64,000 nucleotides of DNA, taken from the NCBI RefSeq assembly GCF_003860405.1, contig NZ_CP034170.1, forward strand, positions 2,418,001 to 2,482,000. The letters run 5' to 3'. Source of the stretch: Nakamurella antarctica (GTDB lineage Bacteria; Actinomycetota; Actinomycetes; Mycobacteriales; Nakamurellaceae). Both the position numbers and the translations under genes were made by a program. This document shows positions 6,815 through 11,855 of this stretch, piece by piece; position 1 is the first letter of the stretch, and every line of letters starts with the position of its first letter. Under the pieces are notes generated by a model. That model had not been told where the DNA came from and searched no databases. It saw nothing but the letters and a program-made list of their open reading frames with translations.

Positions 6815-7570
6815 CTATCTGGCGAGTTCGTCAAGCAAGAACCTGACCGATGCGAATTTGGTGGGTAACGGCTCGGTCCACACCCTCGGCGCGGGAATGT
6901 TGGCCTGCGGATCGGCGCTAATTCGACTCGTATACATTCGGGCCGCCAGTTGCAGGCGACGCGGAAGCATTTCGTCGCGATGCGCGAGAGCGACAGCGAT
7001 TGGTTCGCCCAAGCGGGCCAGCGTCTCGCCGGCATCAAAGACGGAGCGCAGACATTCGCTGACCAGAATCATCGGGAGGGTTCGCTGCCAGGCGCTGCGG
7101 CCAGAAAGGTCTACGCGGACAACAGCTAACGCAAACCTCTCATTAACATCGAAGTGCTGCGCCTGGGCTTGCTGATAAATCTCCGCCAACCGCAGCTGCA
7201 GGTACTCCTTCGATACCAAGCCGGTAAGCGGATCGGAGATCCCCACCGGAGGAGCGGTGATGCGTTCGGCCCAACCGAGGGAAACACCGCGGCGGAGTTG
7301 ATCGGCATAGCGGGACGACACCAAAGCAGTCAAGGCATCCACGTCCGCCAGTGTCTCGCCGAGCCCGACGCCGGCGGCCGCACGTGCGCGGCCGAGCCGC
7401 TCTGCTGCTGGCCAGATATCAGTTTCACCGACAGCGGCTTCGCAGATCGCGTCCACGGCGGGGCTGTCCCAATCAGAGGGGAAAGACCAACCAGCCAATG
7501 CGGATTCTTCTGCCCACTTGGTGCGCAGCGCTCTGGCCGACATGCGTCCGAGCTGTGTTCCTCTTGCCAT
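6815..7570 (-). CDS. Degenerate GGDEF-like domain protein
   Basis: A 251-residue soluble protein. The N-terminal half (1-105) is helical and unassigned. The second half opens with DPLTGL (residues 113-118), the standard entry of a GGDEF (diguanylate cyclase) domain, followed by a helix and a strand AVVRVDLSG. Where GGDEF should stand the sequence reads ARLGEPIAVAL (about 185-195): the catalytic Gly-Asp-Glu signature is lost. It is therefore unlikely to make cyclic di-GMP and may be a scaffold or nucleotide-sensing remnant. It is transcribed toward purK and diverges from the sigma-factor gene. The fold assignment rests on DPLTGL plus the aligned degenerate loop. Confidence 0.6.
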   Translation of the reverse strand: MARGTQLGRMSARALRTKWAEESALAGWSFPSDWDSPAVDAICEAAVGETDIWPAAERLGRARAAAGVGLGETLADVDALTALVSSRYADQLRRGVSLGWAERITAPPVGISDPLTGLVSKEYLQLRLAEIYQQAQAQHFDVNERFALAVVRVDLSGRSAWQRTLPMILVSECLRSVFDAGETLARLGEPIAVALAHRDEMLPRRLQLAARMYTSRISADPQANIPAPRVWTEPLPTKFASVRFLLDELAR

Positions 7571-7945
7571 CAGGCACCTTTTCGTTCATCCACATTCGTA
7601 CACGCGAGCGCTTGTCGAAGTCGTTCTACGAGGCCTTACGGAGAGGAGACGCGCTCAGAGCAGATATATCACGCGATAGAACGACAAAAGATATTGCCCT
7701 GACGATTATTTTTGGTGCAGGAATCGCGTGACATTTGTCGGGTTCCGTCGTCCCTTGACTGAATGGCTCAGCAGAGCCTTCGCGAAGCTCGTTGCCTCAA
7801 CAACACTGTGCGTACTCTCCTGGACACTCGCAGTGAAGACAATGGTGACCCTCTTAACGAAGGTCCTACTTCCCGCAGACCCTTCATCACCCGTATGCTT
7901 CACACAGGCGTTGGGGCATATGCCTCACACTATGACCGCGAAAGA
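7571..7945. promoter_or_regulatory. Divergent intergenic region upstream of the sigma-factor fusion
   Basis: About 375 bases between the GGDEF-like gene and the sigma-factor gene, with no convincing gene. It must hold both divergent promoters. A 10-base palindrome, GGCATATGCC at 7915-7924, lies 22 bases before the chosen sigma-factor start and could be an operator. The stretch from about 7660 to 7720 is visibly AT-richer than its surroundings, as expected of a promoter. I cannot assign a specific ECF -35/-10 pair. Confidence 0.4.
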
Positions 7946-9574
7946 ATGCACATGACGATCACCGACGAGGCAACTGCGCCCAGCGACGCTGAGTTGATCT
8001 CACGCGTTCGTGCGGGCGACCGCACCGCGTACGGCGATCTCTACGGACGACACGCACGGTCAGCAGCCACTCTCGCCCGGCAAATATCGGTTTCCGGCGC
8101 CGAAGCCGACGATTTGGTCGCCGAATCTTTCGCGCGGGTGTTGGACACTCTGCTTGATGGCCGAGGACCTGACTCGTCTTTCCGAGCCTACCTTTTCACC
8201 ACGGTTCGACACACGGCCTACGACAGGTCACGCAAAGATAAACGGCTCCAGTTCACCGATGACGTCGCGGCCCACGAGGTCGCCGTTGAAGCCGAAGATC
8301 CAGTGCTCGCTCAAATGGAAAGCTCTTTTGTAGCAAAGGCTTTTGGTCAGCTTCCCGACCGTTGGCAAGCCGTCCTCTGGCATACGCAAGTCGAAGGGCA
8401 GTCCGCCGCCGAGGTGGGCGTTCTCCTGGGAATGTCCCCGAACGCTGTGTCCTCGTTGGCCTTCCGTGCCCGCGAGGGTTTACGAGAGGCGTACCTCCAG
8501 GTACATATGTCGGAGACCATCGCCGAGCGATGCCGGGCTACCATCGACCGCTTGGGAGCGTGGACCCGCGGTGGGCTGTCGAAGCGCGAAAGCGCGCAGG
8601 TCGATGCTCACCTCGCCGAATGCAACACTTGCCCTGCCTTGGCTGCAGAGTTGTCCGAGATCAACTCCGGCCTCCGTGGCTTGCTGGCACCTCTGCTCTT
8701 GGGCGCTGCCGCCGCCGGTTATGTTGCCACCCTTCCCGCAGTGCCGGTTCTGATGCAGGTCGGGGCCCACGTCGGCGGCACCGCCGCGGGCTCTTCTGCC
8801 GCTTCTGGGGTTACAACGCTCAAGTCGGCTGGCTGGATCCTGGCCCAACCCGCAAGCCTCGGAGCTGGCGTCGCTGCCGCTGCCGCTGCCGCCGTTGTCG
8901 CTTTGGTCGTCGTGCTGTCCACGAATGGACAATCACCTCTCGACAGTCTGGCCGCGGAGACTATCGCGTCTGGGCCTGTCGCTCCCCCCCTCGGGGTCGG
9001 TACCAGCGGTACAGGTGCAGGGGCAGCCGCTGCGACATCGTCCGCAGCGAGCGATTCGCCGTCTGCTGCTACCGCGACCGCACAATCTGCATCAGCGGGA
9101 TCAAGCACGGAACCGGTGTCCGTAGCAACAACTACGACAGCCTCGGTGCCCGCGGTAGCCCCAGCCTCAGTATCCGAATCCGGGCTGGCTGGACCTGACT
9201 CTGCATCTGTACCCGCTGACGCTTCCGCTGCCGGCGGGATTGTTGGCTCGCCGGTAGCTCCGCCGAGTATCTCCAGGCCTACCGTGCCTCGAGTGACGGT
9301 TCCTCGAGTGGCGGTGCCTCAAGTTACGGTGCCTTCGCTGCCCATCGCAGCGGCCAACCCCGGCGACACTGCGCCGACCACCACTGCGCCGACCACCACT
9401 GCGCCCCCCACCACAGCGCCAACCACCACCGCGCCGACCACCACAGCGCCAACCACCACCGCGCCCCCCACCACAGCGCCAACCACCACAGCGCCAACCA
9501 CCACCGCGCCCCCCACCACAGCGCCAACCACCACCGCGCCCCCACCACTGCGCCGACCACACCGCCCGTGCTGA
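7946..9574 (+). CDS. ECF sigma factor with zinc-finger anti-sigma-like and membrane segments; N-terminal part of a split gene
   Basis: Numbered from the ATG at 7946: sigma region 2 at about 15-100 (DDLVAESFARVL), region 4 at about 131-185 (LPDRWQAVLWHTQVEG, then an HTH), and a ZAS-type zinc motif H222-x3-C226-x2-C229 as in anti-sigma factors. A hydrophobic stretch (about 244-270) and a clear membrane helix (about 306-325) follow, then a Ser/Ala/Thr-rich linker and TTTAP repeats. The frame ends with an out-of-character LRRPHRPC tail after a five-C run where the other repeat copies have six. One more C would join it to the downstream frame as a protein of about 1,099 residues. A further ATG at 7952 is also possible. 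Sigma factors with C-terminal regulatory extensions are known in Actinobacteria. Confidence 0.85.
   Translation: MHMTITDEATAPSDAELISRVRAGDRTAYGDLYGRHARSAATLARQISVSGAEADDLVAESFARVLDTLLDGRGPDSSFRAYLFTTVRHTAYDRSRKDKRLQFTDDVAAHEVAVEAEDPVLAQMESSFVAKAFGQLPDRWQAVLWHTQVEGQSAAEVGVLLGMSPNAVSSLAFRAREGLREAYLQVHMSETIAERCRATIDRLGAWTRGGLSKRESAQVDAHLAECNTCPALAAELSEINSGLRGLLAPLLLGAAAAGYVATLPAVPVLMQVGAHVGGTAAGSSAASGVTTLKSAGWILAQPASLGAGVAAAAAAAVVALVVVLSTNGQSPLDSLAAETIASGPVAPPLGVGTSGTGAGAAAATSSAASDSPSAATATAQSASAGSSTEPVSVATTTTASVPAVAPASVSESGLAGPDSASVPADASAAGGIVGSPVAPPSISRPTVPRVTVPRVAVPQVTVPSLPIAAANPGDTAPTTTAPTTTAPPTTAPTTTAPTTTAPTTTAPPTTAPTTTAPTTTAPPTTAPTTTAPPPLRRPHRPC
9368..9560 (+). repeat. Thr/Pro-rich coding tandem repeat (TTTAP units)
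   Basis: Direct repeats of 15-base units encoding TTTAP or PTTAP, in near-identical tandem copies. This is a flexible, probably wall-spanning linker between membrane helix and sensor half. Such near-identical repeats are prone to slippage and to assembly error. Confidence 0.9.
9539..9543 (+). other. Frameshift site: five-C run in place of six
   Basis: The equivalent position in the other repeat copies (for example 9404-9409) reads GCG followed by six Cs and ACC. Here only five Cs occur. Restoring one C gives 3,300 bases from 7946 to 11244, exactly 1,100 codons with no internal stop, and continues the TTAP pattern into PPVLTEAS. Confidence 0.85.
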
Positions 9575-11244
9575 CGGAAGCCAGCTTTGAGGTCACTACT
9601 TCTTCTCTGTCCGTAGTCGCGGGCGGCACCGCAGAGTTTTCGGTAAGCATCAAAAACGTGGGCCAAAAGCCCTCGGCGGAAAATCAAGCCATCACCTTGG
9701 CGGGCAACGGTGTTGCCCTGACCGGAGTGAGCCTCACATCAGCCCCAGTGGGCCAAGGCCTGCGCCCAGCGGGAGCGGCCCTGCGGGGGGCTCCCGCCAC
9801 CACCATCAGCTGCACAAACAACTCCTGCTTGCTTCCCAAGGTCGAACCCGGTGTCAGCATCTCGCTTACGGTCACCGTCACAGCGAGCCCAGACGCCCAG
9901 GGCGGCCCGAGTAGTTTCGAGATCGGCAACGTTTCCTATCCATTTGCTGTCGCGGTTCAACCGGGATATCAGAACCTCACGCTGACAGCGCTGGACTCCT
10001 TGGGAACGCCCGACGCTGGCCCCGTTGTCGCGGGTACCGCAGTCGACATGGTGTTGGCAGCGACAAACGCGGGAACGTCCAACCCCGGCCCGATCAGCCT
10101 TCCAGTACAAATGGGAGATTCGCTGATTATCGACAGTGCCTCCCCTGACCCAGCCAGTGGATCAATCTGCGAATTTGTCGGCCAGGACCTGATTTGTACG
10201 CCCGGCGCCAATGGTCTCGGGAACGTTAAATTGGGAGTTTTTGTTCGTACTGATGCAGCTGGAAGTGCGAGCTTCACTGCACGCCTGGCTGGCGAGCGCG
10301 TTGTCGCTGTCACCAATGGTGTAGAAGTCACTCCTCGTGTTGGCAACCAACCTATTGAGATCAAGGGCCACTTCGGAGCCACATCCGTCGGCGCGGCGAC
10401 ACTCGCATGTTCGACTCCCCCTAACGTGACCATTCAAACCAGTTGCCGGAGCACGTCCGCAGTCCAACCGGTCGCTCCTGTCGCGCAGCAACTGGCAATC
10501 CCTGCTGGGTCCACCGTGGCCTTCGCAGAGCTGGTCTGGGCAGCAACCTCTGGTGAATCCTCCGCCATTACCGCTGACTTTGGCTCTGGCAGGGGCCCAG
10601 AGGTACTCGCTGGCGACCTCGTTCCCGTCACGGGTGGCGCCGGCGGATTTATCGCCACCTATCGCGCCGACGTCACCGGCAAGTTGACTGGTAGCGCGGC
10701 GGTCACCGTCACCAACCTGGCCAGCTCCCTCACTACGGTCGTTGACCCGGACGCTACTCAGAGCACGCCTCCCCTCGGTGCCTGGACGCTCAGTGTCATC
10801 TGGTCTGACCCCACATCGGCGACCCGGATGGTTCAGTACAGCAATCTCAATCTGGGATCGATTCCACCGCCTGCAGTGGTAGGCGGCCCGCCGGCACTCA
10901 ATGGGCCACTCACGCTGGCTACCGGAACTTCGAGCATTGAGCGCGCGTGGCTGTCCGTGTGGGGGGCAGACCCGTGGGGGGTGAAAACGCTTAGAAACGC
11001 CGGAGTCGAAGTCACTACCTACGTTGATGGCTCTGAGGCACCGCGGCTTATTGTCGGCTCCACACCCTCCGTCCAAACGGGCTTCGATCTCGTCGAGTTC
11101 TCCTCGCAGGCGAACGCCGGGAATCTCACCCTGTCGAACCAAGGTGAATTTACCGGTCTCGATCCCGCAAATCCGTTGGCGGGCCTCTGGAACCAAGATC
11201 GCATCTGGGTGGGCCCGCTACTCATCGTTCGGAATCAAGGCTAA
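9568..11244 (+). CDS. Extracytoplasmic Ig-like (DUF11-type) half of the split sigma-factor fusion
   Basis: 558 residues with no signal peptide or own membrane helix. The GTG at 9568 has no ribosome binding site and lies inside the repeat-linker continuation, so this is almost certainly the C-terminal half of the preceding gene, not an independent one. Beta-rich, Ser/Thr/Gly-rich repeats (SVVAGGTAEFSVSIKNVG, then VVAGTAVDMVLAATNAGTSN) resemble DUF11/CARDB-like cell-surface modules. The final 250 residues (AELVWAATSG, GAWTLSVIWSD, WGVKTLRNAGVEVTTYVDG) look like a second beta-sandwich domain found in secreted actinobacterial proteins. Cys pairs (SCTNNSC, and ACST with TSC) may form disulfides outside the cell. 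The ligand is unknown. Confidence 0.75.
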   Translation: MLTEASFEVTTSSLSVVAGGTAEFSVSIKNVGQKPSAENQAITLAGNGVALTGVSLTSAPVGQGLRPAGAALRGAPATTISCTNNSCLLPKVEPGVSISLTVTVTASPDAQGGPSSFEIGNVSYPFAVAVQPGYQNLTLTALDSLGTPDAGPVVAGTAVDMVLAATNAGTSNPGPISLPVQMGDSLIIDSASPDPASGSICEFVGQDLICTPGANGLGNVKLGVFVRTDAAGSASFTARLAGERVVAVTNGVEVTPRVGNQPIEIKGHFGATSVGAATLACSTPPNVTIQTSCRSTSAVQPVAPVAQQLAIPAGSTVAFAELVWAATSGESSAITADFGSGRGPEVLAGDLVPVTGGAGGFIATYRADVTGKLTGSAAVTVTNLASSLTTVVDPDATQSTPPLGAWTLSVIWSDPTSATRMVQYSNLNLGSIPPPAVVGGPPALNGPLTLATGTSSIERAWLSVWGADPWGVKTLRNAGVEVTTYVDGSEAPRLIVGSTPSVQTGFDLVEFSSQANAGNLTLSNQGEFTGLDPANPLAGLWNQDRIWVGPLLIVRNQG

Positions 11245-11333: not shown

Positions 11334-11855
11334 GTGAACCTTGTAGATCGCGTGCGGGCCGTATTGCCTGAAAAGTACCGCCAATTCTCGAAGTTCCTCA
11401 TTGTCGGCGGGTTCACCTGGGTGATCGATACCGGGCTTTTTTTGATCCTCCGTAACACGATCTTGAGCGACAAGGTCCTGACTGCCAAGATTATTCCGGT
11501 CCTCATCGCGATGATCGTCAACTACGTACTGAACCGCGAATGGTCTTTTGCCCAGCGGGGTGGTCGCGAAAAGGCACACGAAGCGTTGCTTTTCTTCCTC
11601 CTCAACGGCATTGGGCTGCTCATCAACTTGGTCCCCTTGTGGATCTCCCATTACCTACTCGGCTTCAACCTTGCCCACTACAGCACCCTGACGGTCAACA
11701 TCGTCGACGTCATTTCTGGTTCCATCATCGGCACAATTTTGGCGATGGCATTTCGTTACTGGGCTTACAAAAAATGGGTTTTTCCCGAAGTCAAGGATGA
11801 AGAATCCGCTCACCTCTCCGAGGGCAACCCGGGGAGCCCTCGAGGTACTTCATAG
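11334..11855 (+). CDS. GtrA family membrane protein
   Basis: A 173-residue protein with four predicted membrane helices: the first around FLIVGGFTWVIDTGLFLIL, the second around IIPVLIAMIVNYVLNREWSF, the third around FFLLNGIGLLINLVPLWIS, the fourth around GSIIGTILAMAFRYWAYKKW. GtrA proteins are thought to flip undecaprenyl-phosphate-linked sugars for wall or surface glycan modification. The NYVLNREWSF and RYWAYKKWVF signatures are typical of the family. The acidic C-terminal tail is cytoplasmic. It is convergent with the histidine kinase gene and corresponds by position to Rv3277. Confidence 0.92.
   Translation: MNLVDRVRAVLPEKYRQFSKFLIVGGFTWVIDTGLFLILRNTILSDKVLTAKIIPVLIAMIVNYVLNREWSFAQRGGREKAHEALLFFLLNGIGLLINLVPLWISHYLLGFNLAHYSTLTVNIVDVISGSIIGTILAMAFRYWAYKKWVFPEVKDEESAHLSEGNPGSPRGTS

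Follow-up and report, generated by a model that had tools for sequence, protein, structure and literature searches.

A Nakamurella orthologue of a published one-protein sigma-factor architecture, with a linker frame break that is most likely a one-base assembly under-call

We present the analysis of a gene at positions 7946..11244 of a 64,000-nucleotide stretch of Nakamurella antarctica (contig NZ_CP034170.1, forward-strand positions 2,418,001 to 2,482,000; hereafter the window), which reads in the assembly as two pieces in different frames. It is probable that this gene is the Nakamurella orthologue of a widespread actinobacterial one-protein device, in which an extracytoplasmic function (ECF) sigma factor is followed in the same chain by a zinc-associated anti-sigma (ZAS) domain, a membrane helix, a Thr/Pro/Ala linker and an immunoglobulin (Ig)/DUF11-like outside half, the sigma factor being inhibited in cis and released by proteolysis and the break being an under-called base. 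The case is read from sequence, namely from domain order, zinc-ligand positions, a single frame in relatives, synteny and the presence of site-2-protease family members, together with a topology that is predicted. The architecture and the proteolytic-release model are already in print for ECF48, ECF52 and ECF53 (available portions of PMC8999054 and PMC5826349), so novelty is not supported for the reading given in the initial annotation, which was made from the window's letters.

The first piece (7946..9574, + strand), delimited by its open reading frame (ORF) and Pfam matches, comprises the ECF sigma factor, the anti-sigma finger, the membrane helix and the linker. Its ORF mechanically opens at 7763 (7763..9574, 603 aa), the start chosen in the initial annotation is the ATG at 7946, and the conserved block taken for alignment begins at 7985. 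Three domains exceed the Pfam cut-offs in this ORF, all on the + strand: sigma-70 region 2 (8039..8245; PF04542, Sigma70_r2, E 1.7e-11), sigma-70 region 4 (8336..8476; PF08281, Sigma70_r4_2, E 4.3e-7) and the ZAS-type zinc finger zf-HC2, a Cys followed by HxxxCxxC (8531..8632; PF13490, E 6.1e-8). Regions 2 and 4 place the protein among the ECF sigma factors, and its ZAS finger stands in the same chain as in ECF48, ECF52 and ECF53. The four zinc-ligand positions are invariant in 12/12 Nakamurella sequences (alignment A1) and in all 37 of alignment A3, and the profile of A3 matched ECF sigma factors among solved structures, with CnrH as the best match (E 2.7e-11). The second piece (9568..11244, + strand, other frame), delimited by ORF and alignment, is the outside half; it encodes 558 aa, stop-free across 558 codons, is Ig/DUF11-like by resemblance, and its C-terminal part is common to relatives. 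The ORFs and the order of ECF sigma factor, ZAS finger, helix, linker and outside half described initially are borne out by the ORF list, Pfam and prediction.

The break falls in a 15-base tandem array encoding the Thr/Ala/Pro linker (9367..9560, + strand), for which the program TRF reported a period of 15 and 13.0 copies, in agreement with the printed units. The listing of units places it in a five-C run (9539..9543, + strand) inside the sole 14-base unit of the array, the equivalent runs at 9404-9409, 9464-9469 and 9509-9514 having six C each. The interval 7946..11244 spans 3,299 bases and becomes 1,100 codons with one base added; the C counts, the coordinates and the 1,100-codon frame put forward initially were correct where checked.

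Whether the two pieces belong to one protein can be judged from relatives. With a sigma-to-helix query (E <= 1e-15) and frames counted from stop to stop, a sigma-part match was found in 12 of 16 other Nakamurella genomes. In 11 of these 12 it lies within one uninterrupted frame, 1,030-2,357 codons long, and G015, the remaining genome, has 339 codons at a contig end. Sigma region 2 and zf-HC2 score above cut-off in that frame in all 11 intact relatives, where region 4 is found at E < 2e-5, slightly below the Pfam cut-off in G005 and G016. The comparison with related strains suggested by the initial annotation shows the two halves as separate genes nowhere in the genus, and its one-protein reading is upheld by the single frame in these 11 relatives as well as by the charge distribution described below. 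It is thus hardly credible that two products are made, the second half being translated separately or reached through a programmed frameshift in the C run: the GTG at 9568 does overlap the stop at 9572-9574, but relatives use a single frame and, judging the translation by eye alone, the second piece has neither signal sequence nor membrane helix.

Beyond the genus, the wider set consisted of the best 80 of 310 relatives from a contig scan, of which 3 run off their contig and 77 are complete; 3 of the 77 are Nakamurella copies already counted, leaving 74 other loci. Complete loci were judged whole by frame length (at least 703 codons from the sigma block), with two exceptions, L115 and L053. 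For L053 (Kutzneria sp. 744) frame length is misleading, as a linker break (8882-9130, a stretch with a five-C run) places an otherwise intact outside half in a different frame; a separate-frame outside half was checked for this locus alone, the others being judged by frame length. L115:8001-9254 (Amycolatopsis vastitatis) has the same sigma-finger-helix core in 418 codons and a short end of a different kind, which gave no Pfam match and which we take by eye to be SH3-like. At class level, 104/296 genomes (own genome included) matched at least part of a sigma-plus-finger profile at E <= 1e-30, some of them in the sigma part only, while 20 same-order genomes are listed among those with no match to this profile.

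The outside half is far less constant than the core. Identity to the window protein is 61-86% over sigma and finger and 26-33% for the C-terminal halves, or portions of them, that were compared, which indicates that the outside half diverges faster, and a query with the second half matched 5/16 same-genus genomes at E <= 0.001. In the relative G003, the match covers residues 8-554 of 558 (E 4.4e-42) and shares one 1,128-codon frame with the sigma domain; a match of nearly full length in frame with a sigma domain lies beyond chance. The Pfam scan of the window's second half returned no domain, Pfam on the C-terminal halves of the four A2 members gave no match to E 0.1, the profile of the C-terminal half gave none among solved structures to E 1, and tblastn with this half found no match in plasmids. 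Among the 11 intact Nakamurella relatives, Pfam reports DUF11 above cut-off in G009 only and NPCBM_assoc in G013 only. The Ig-like character initially proposed for the outside half stands as a resemblance, by eye and through Pfam matches in a few relatives, and has no counterpart among Pfam domains in the window copy.

The missing base itself was approached through the rest of the assembly. The window genome (G000) is one contig of 3,377,955 bases, with a G+C content of 62.0% over 400 kb, and 1.2 Mb of it were compared in both directions with 1.2 Mb of the single relative G003. Frame-split in G000 were 9/333 G003 proteins with an acceptable match, 8 of the 9 in the phase expected of one lost base, and the reverse control gave 3/348, of which one showed that phase; restricted to the middle 400 kb, the comparison gave 4/161 versus 0/175. 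The sigma gene is itself absent from the nine cases, and three of them are doubtful yet counted (a query that looks to be in the wrong frame, a half of 40% identity, and a gap of ~32 residues). The split genes include those for SerA (phosphoglycerate dehydrogenase) and acetolactate synthase, each in two frames with an apparent one-base loss (G000:C1:2330921-2332494 and 2335510-2337362). The only TPP_enzyme_M matches in G000 are the two pieces of this one split acetolactate synthase, and for SerA the split gene gives the sole match to exceed the family cut-off, two weaker matches elsewhere lying below it. Loss of these genes would be costly to a free-living soil bacterium, and an error in the assembly is thus the simplest explanation common to the splits. 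The five-C run most likely reflects an under-call of one base, and the living strain probably has the gene whole.

A real and recent break in this strain would leave the sigma factor anchored with its linker and deprived of the sensor half, the second half being dead DNA or a stray cytoplasmic fragment from the GTG at 9568. The assembled sequence does read that way, and a genome of 3.38 Mb, below the 3.8-6.1 Mb of the 16 relatives, makes gene loss plausible. We nevertheless regard such a break as unlikely, given the other apparent one-base losses in biosynthetic genes without a second copy above cut-off, and given that the second half keeps 558 stop-free codons along with its near full-length similarity.

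The switch by reversible slippage at the linker C runs, which the initial annotation had offered and which would toggle the protein between anchored-plus-sensor and anchored-only forms, is very improbable. The window does have C runs of 7, 6, 6 and 6 on the stretch from the membrane helix to the break; six C is, however, short relative to known phase-variable tracts. The frame is kept in all 11 complete relatives from the genus, of which four lack any C/G run of at least 6 after the finger and none shows 7 or more there, and among the 74 other loci a post-finger run of at least 6 occurs in 25 and one of at least 7 in 1; the other one-base losses in conserved genes of the assembly likewise speak against it. 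Linker frame breaks are also seen in Kutzneria sp. 744 and, in print, in Streptomyces clavuligerus, where the orthologue of the ECF52 group is split by a stop at its proline-rich region and the authors suspect a sequence error (PMC5826349, available portion). Were the breaks in the window, Kutzneria sp. 744 and S. clavuligerus real, they could amount to recurrent uncoupling of a membrane-held sigma factor from its sensor by repeat slippage, a view to which we give little credence.

With respect to topology, the predicted membrane helix (8864..8926, + strand) is delimited by an AlphaFold2 helix at residues 307-327, by hydrophobicity and by the charge rule. The helix has a block predicted local distance difference test score (pLDDT) of about 61-63 over most of its length, and sigma regions 2 and 4 are confidently modelled. 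Net charge is higher before the membrane helix than after it in 74/86 family proteins, equal in 10 and lower in 2, which favours, on sequence grounds, a sigma part inside and a C-terminal half outside. By prediction, the protein thus has the membrane helix followed by an extracytoplasmic extension that is typical of ECF48, ECF52 and ECF53.

Several results weigh against the proposed whole, membrane-spanning device. The frame-split contrast is modest (9/333 versus 3/348, Fisher p 0.083); it stays modest under a stricter rule, set post hoc and counted by eye (7/333 versus 1/348, p 0.034), which a second control case misses by spacing alone. Homopolymer counts show a depletion of G/C runs in G000 no stronger than in G003 and hence no global signature, and third-position GC is uninformative as a frame test, the second frame being already higher upstream of the break. 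The AlphaFold2 model of the C-terminal half, run with three relatives, failed (mean pLDDT 45.4) and was unused for fold searches; the finger region is weaker than the sigma regions (block pLDDT 58-69; predicted template modelling score 0.43), and docking of the ZAS domain on the sigma factor is unsupported by the model. Directly behind the finger, a first hydrophobic segment clears a Kyte-Doolittle threshold of 1.6 in 75/77 complete loci, and if it also crossed the membrane the C-terminal half would lie inside.

An arrangement of two membrane segments with the C-terminus inside is less likely, though one to two helices are given for published relatives (PMC8999054, available portion). The second segment outscored the first in 86/86 proteins, a count biased by the longer stretch over which the second was sought; the charge rule carries more weight.

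In the proposed device, the ZAS domain would restrain sigma regions 2 and 4 at the membrane in an inactive state. A trigger at the outside half, which the types of module found there suggest may be contact with the wall or with carbohydrate, or the loss of such contact, would set off stepwise proteolysis by which the sigma part could be freed. Peptidase_M50, the site-2-protease family, is found at three places in the genome. A point of comparison is IutY from Pseudomonas putida (ECF243), which to our knowledge has no Ig-like half. IutY is likewise a sigma factor fused to a membrane-bound anti-sigma part and is freed by Prc and RseP (PMC8999054, available portion).

Closer to the window protein is SCO4117 of Streptomyces coelicolor (ECF52), which has an ECF domain, zf-HC2, a membrane region, a proline-rich extension and an outside module, with proteolytic release proposed (PMC5826349, available portion). 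The C-terminus of SCO4117, unlike that of the window protein, is formed by a carbohydrate-binding module (smart00776; same source), for which no counterpart was found in the window copy, its outside half having no Pfam domain; the NPCBM_assoc match in G013 is NEW3 and not the binding module itself. SCO4117 adjoins atrA (same source), whereas the window gene lies between purE/purK and gtrA, a different setting. A strain with only the sigma domain of SCO4117 is described as having a milder defect than the whole-gene deletion (available portions of PMC8999054 and PMC5826349). ECF48 and ECF53 share with the window protein a fused zinc finger (likely ZAS), one to two membrane helices, a long extension and an expected proteolysis; their extensions are given as up to 400 residues, whereas whole frames in Nakamurella reach 2,357 codons (PMC8999054, available portion, for the former).

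The surroundings of the gene are conserved as well. Upstream lies a divergent, unnamed conserved protein (6815..7570, - strand), with a GGDEF resemblance below cut-off in the window copy and 37-59% identity to seven aligned homologues; downstream lies a GtrA-family membrane protein (11334..11855, + strand; PF04138, E 4.2e-24). The order purE-purK, divergent gene, sigma gene, gtrA is kept in the 11 Nakamurella loci, purE being beyond the stretch read in one. For synteny elsewhere, 8 of the 74 other loci were sampled: the divergent neighbour stands beside the sigma gene in 11/11 Nakamurella and 7/8 of these loci, gtrA follows in 11/11 and 8/8, and in several of the eight purK is set apart by some kilobases. 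The divergent neighbour may be a partner or a target of the sigma factor.

A search upstream for an ECF promoter of the GGAAC...CGT/GTC type gave hits in 3/12 Nakamurella sequences, at differing places, and hence nothing conserved. The 8-mer GTCACACT, on either strand, occurs at most 450 bases upstream of the sigma gene in 69/89 sequences, mostly L041-L116, frequently with a GTGAC partner further upstream, and it resembles a promoter or inverted-repeat operator.

Overall, the window gene is in all likelihood a further case of the published architecture, whole in the living strain. It comes with a caution, as such proteins can appear split in databases when a repeat-rich linker carries a single-base error. 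For the family, Nakamurella and the sampled loci of Pseudonocardiales present a constant sigma core joined to very large and variable outside halves, within a conserved synteny.
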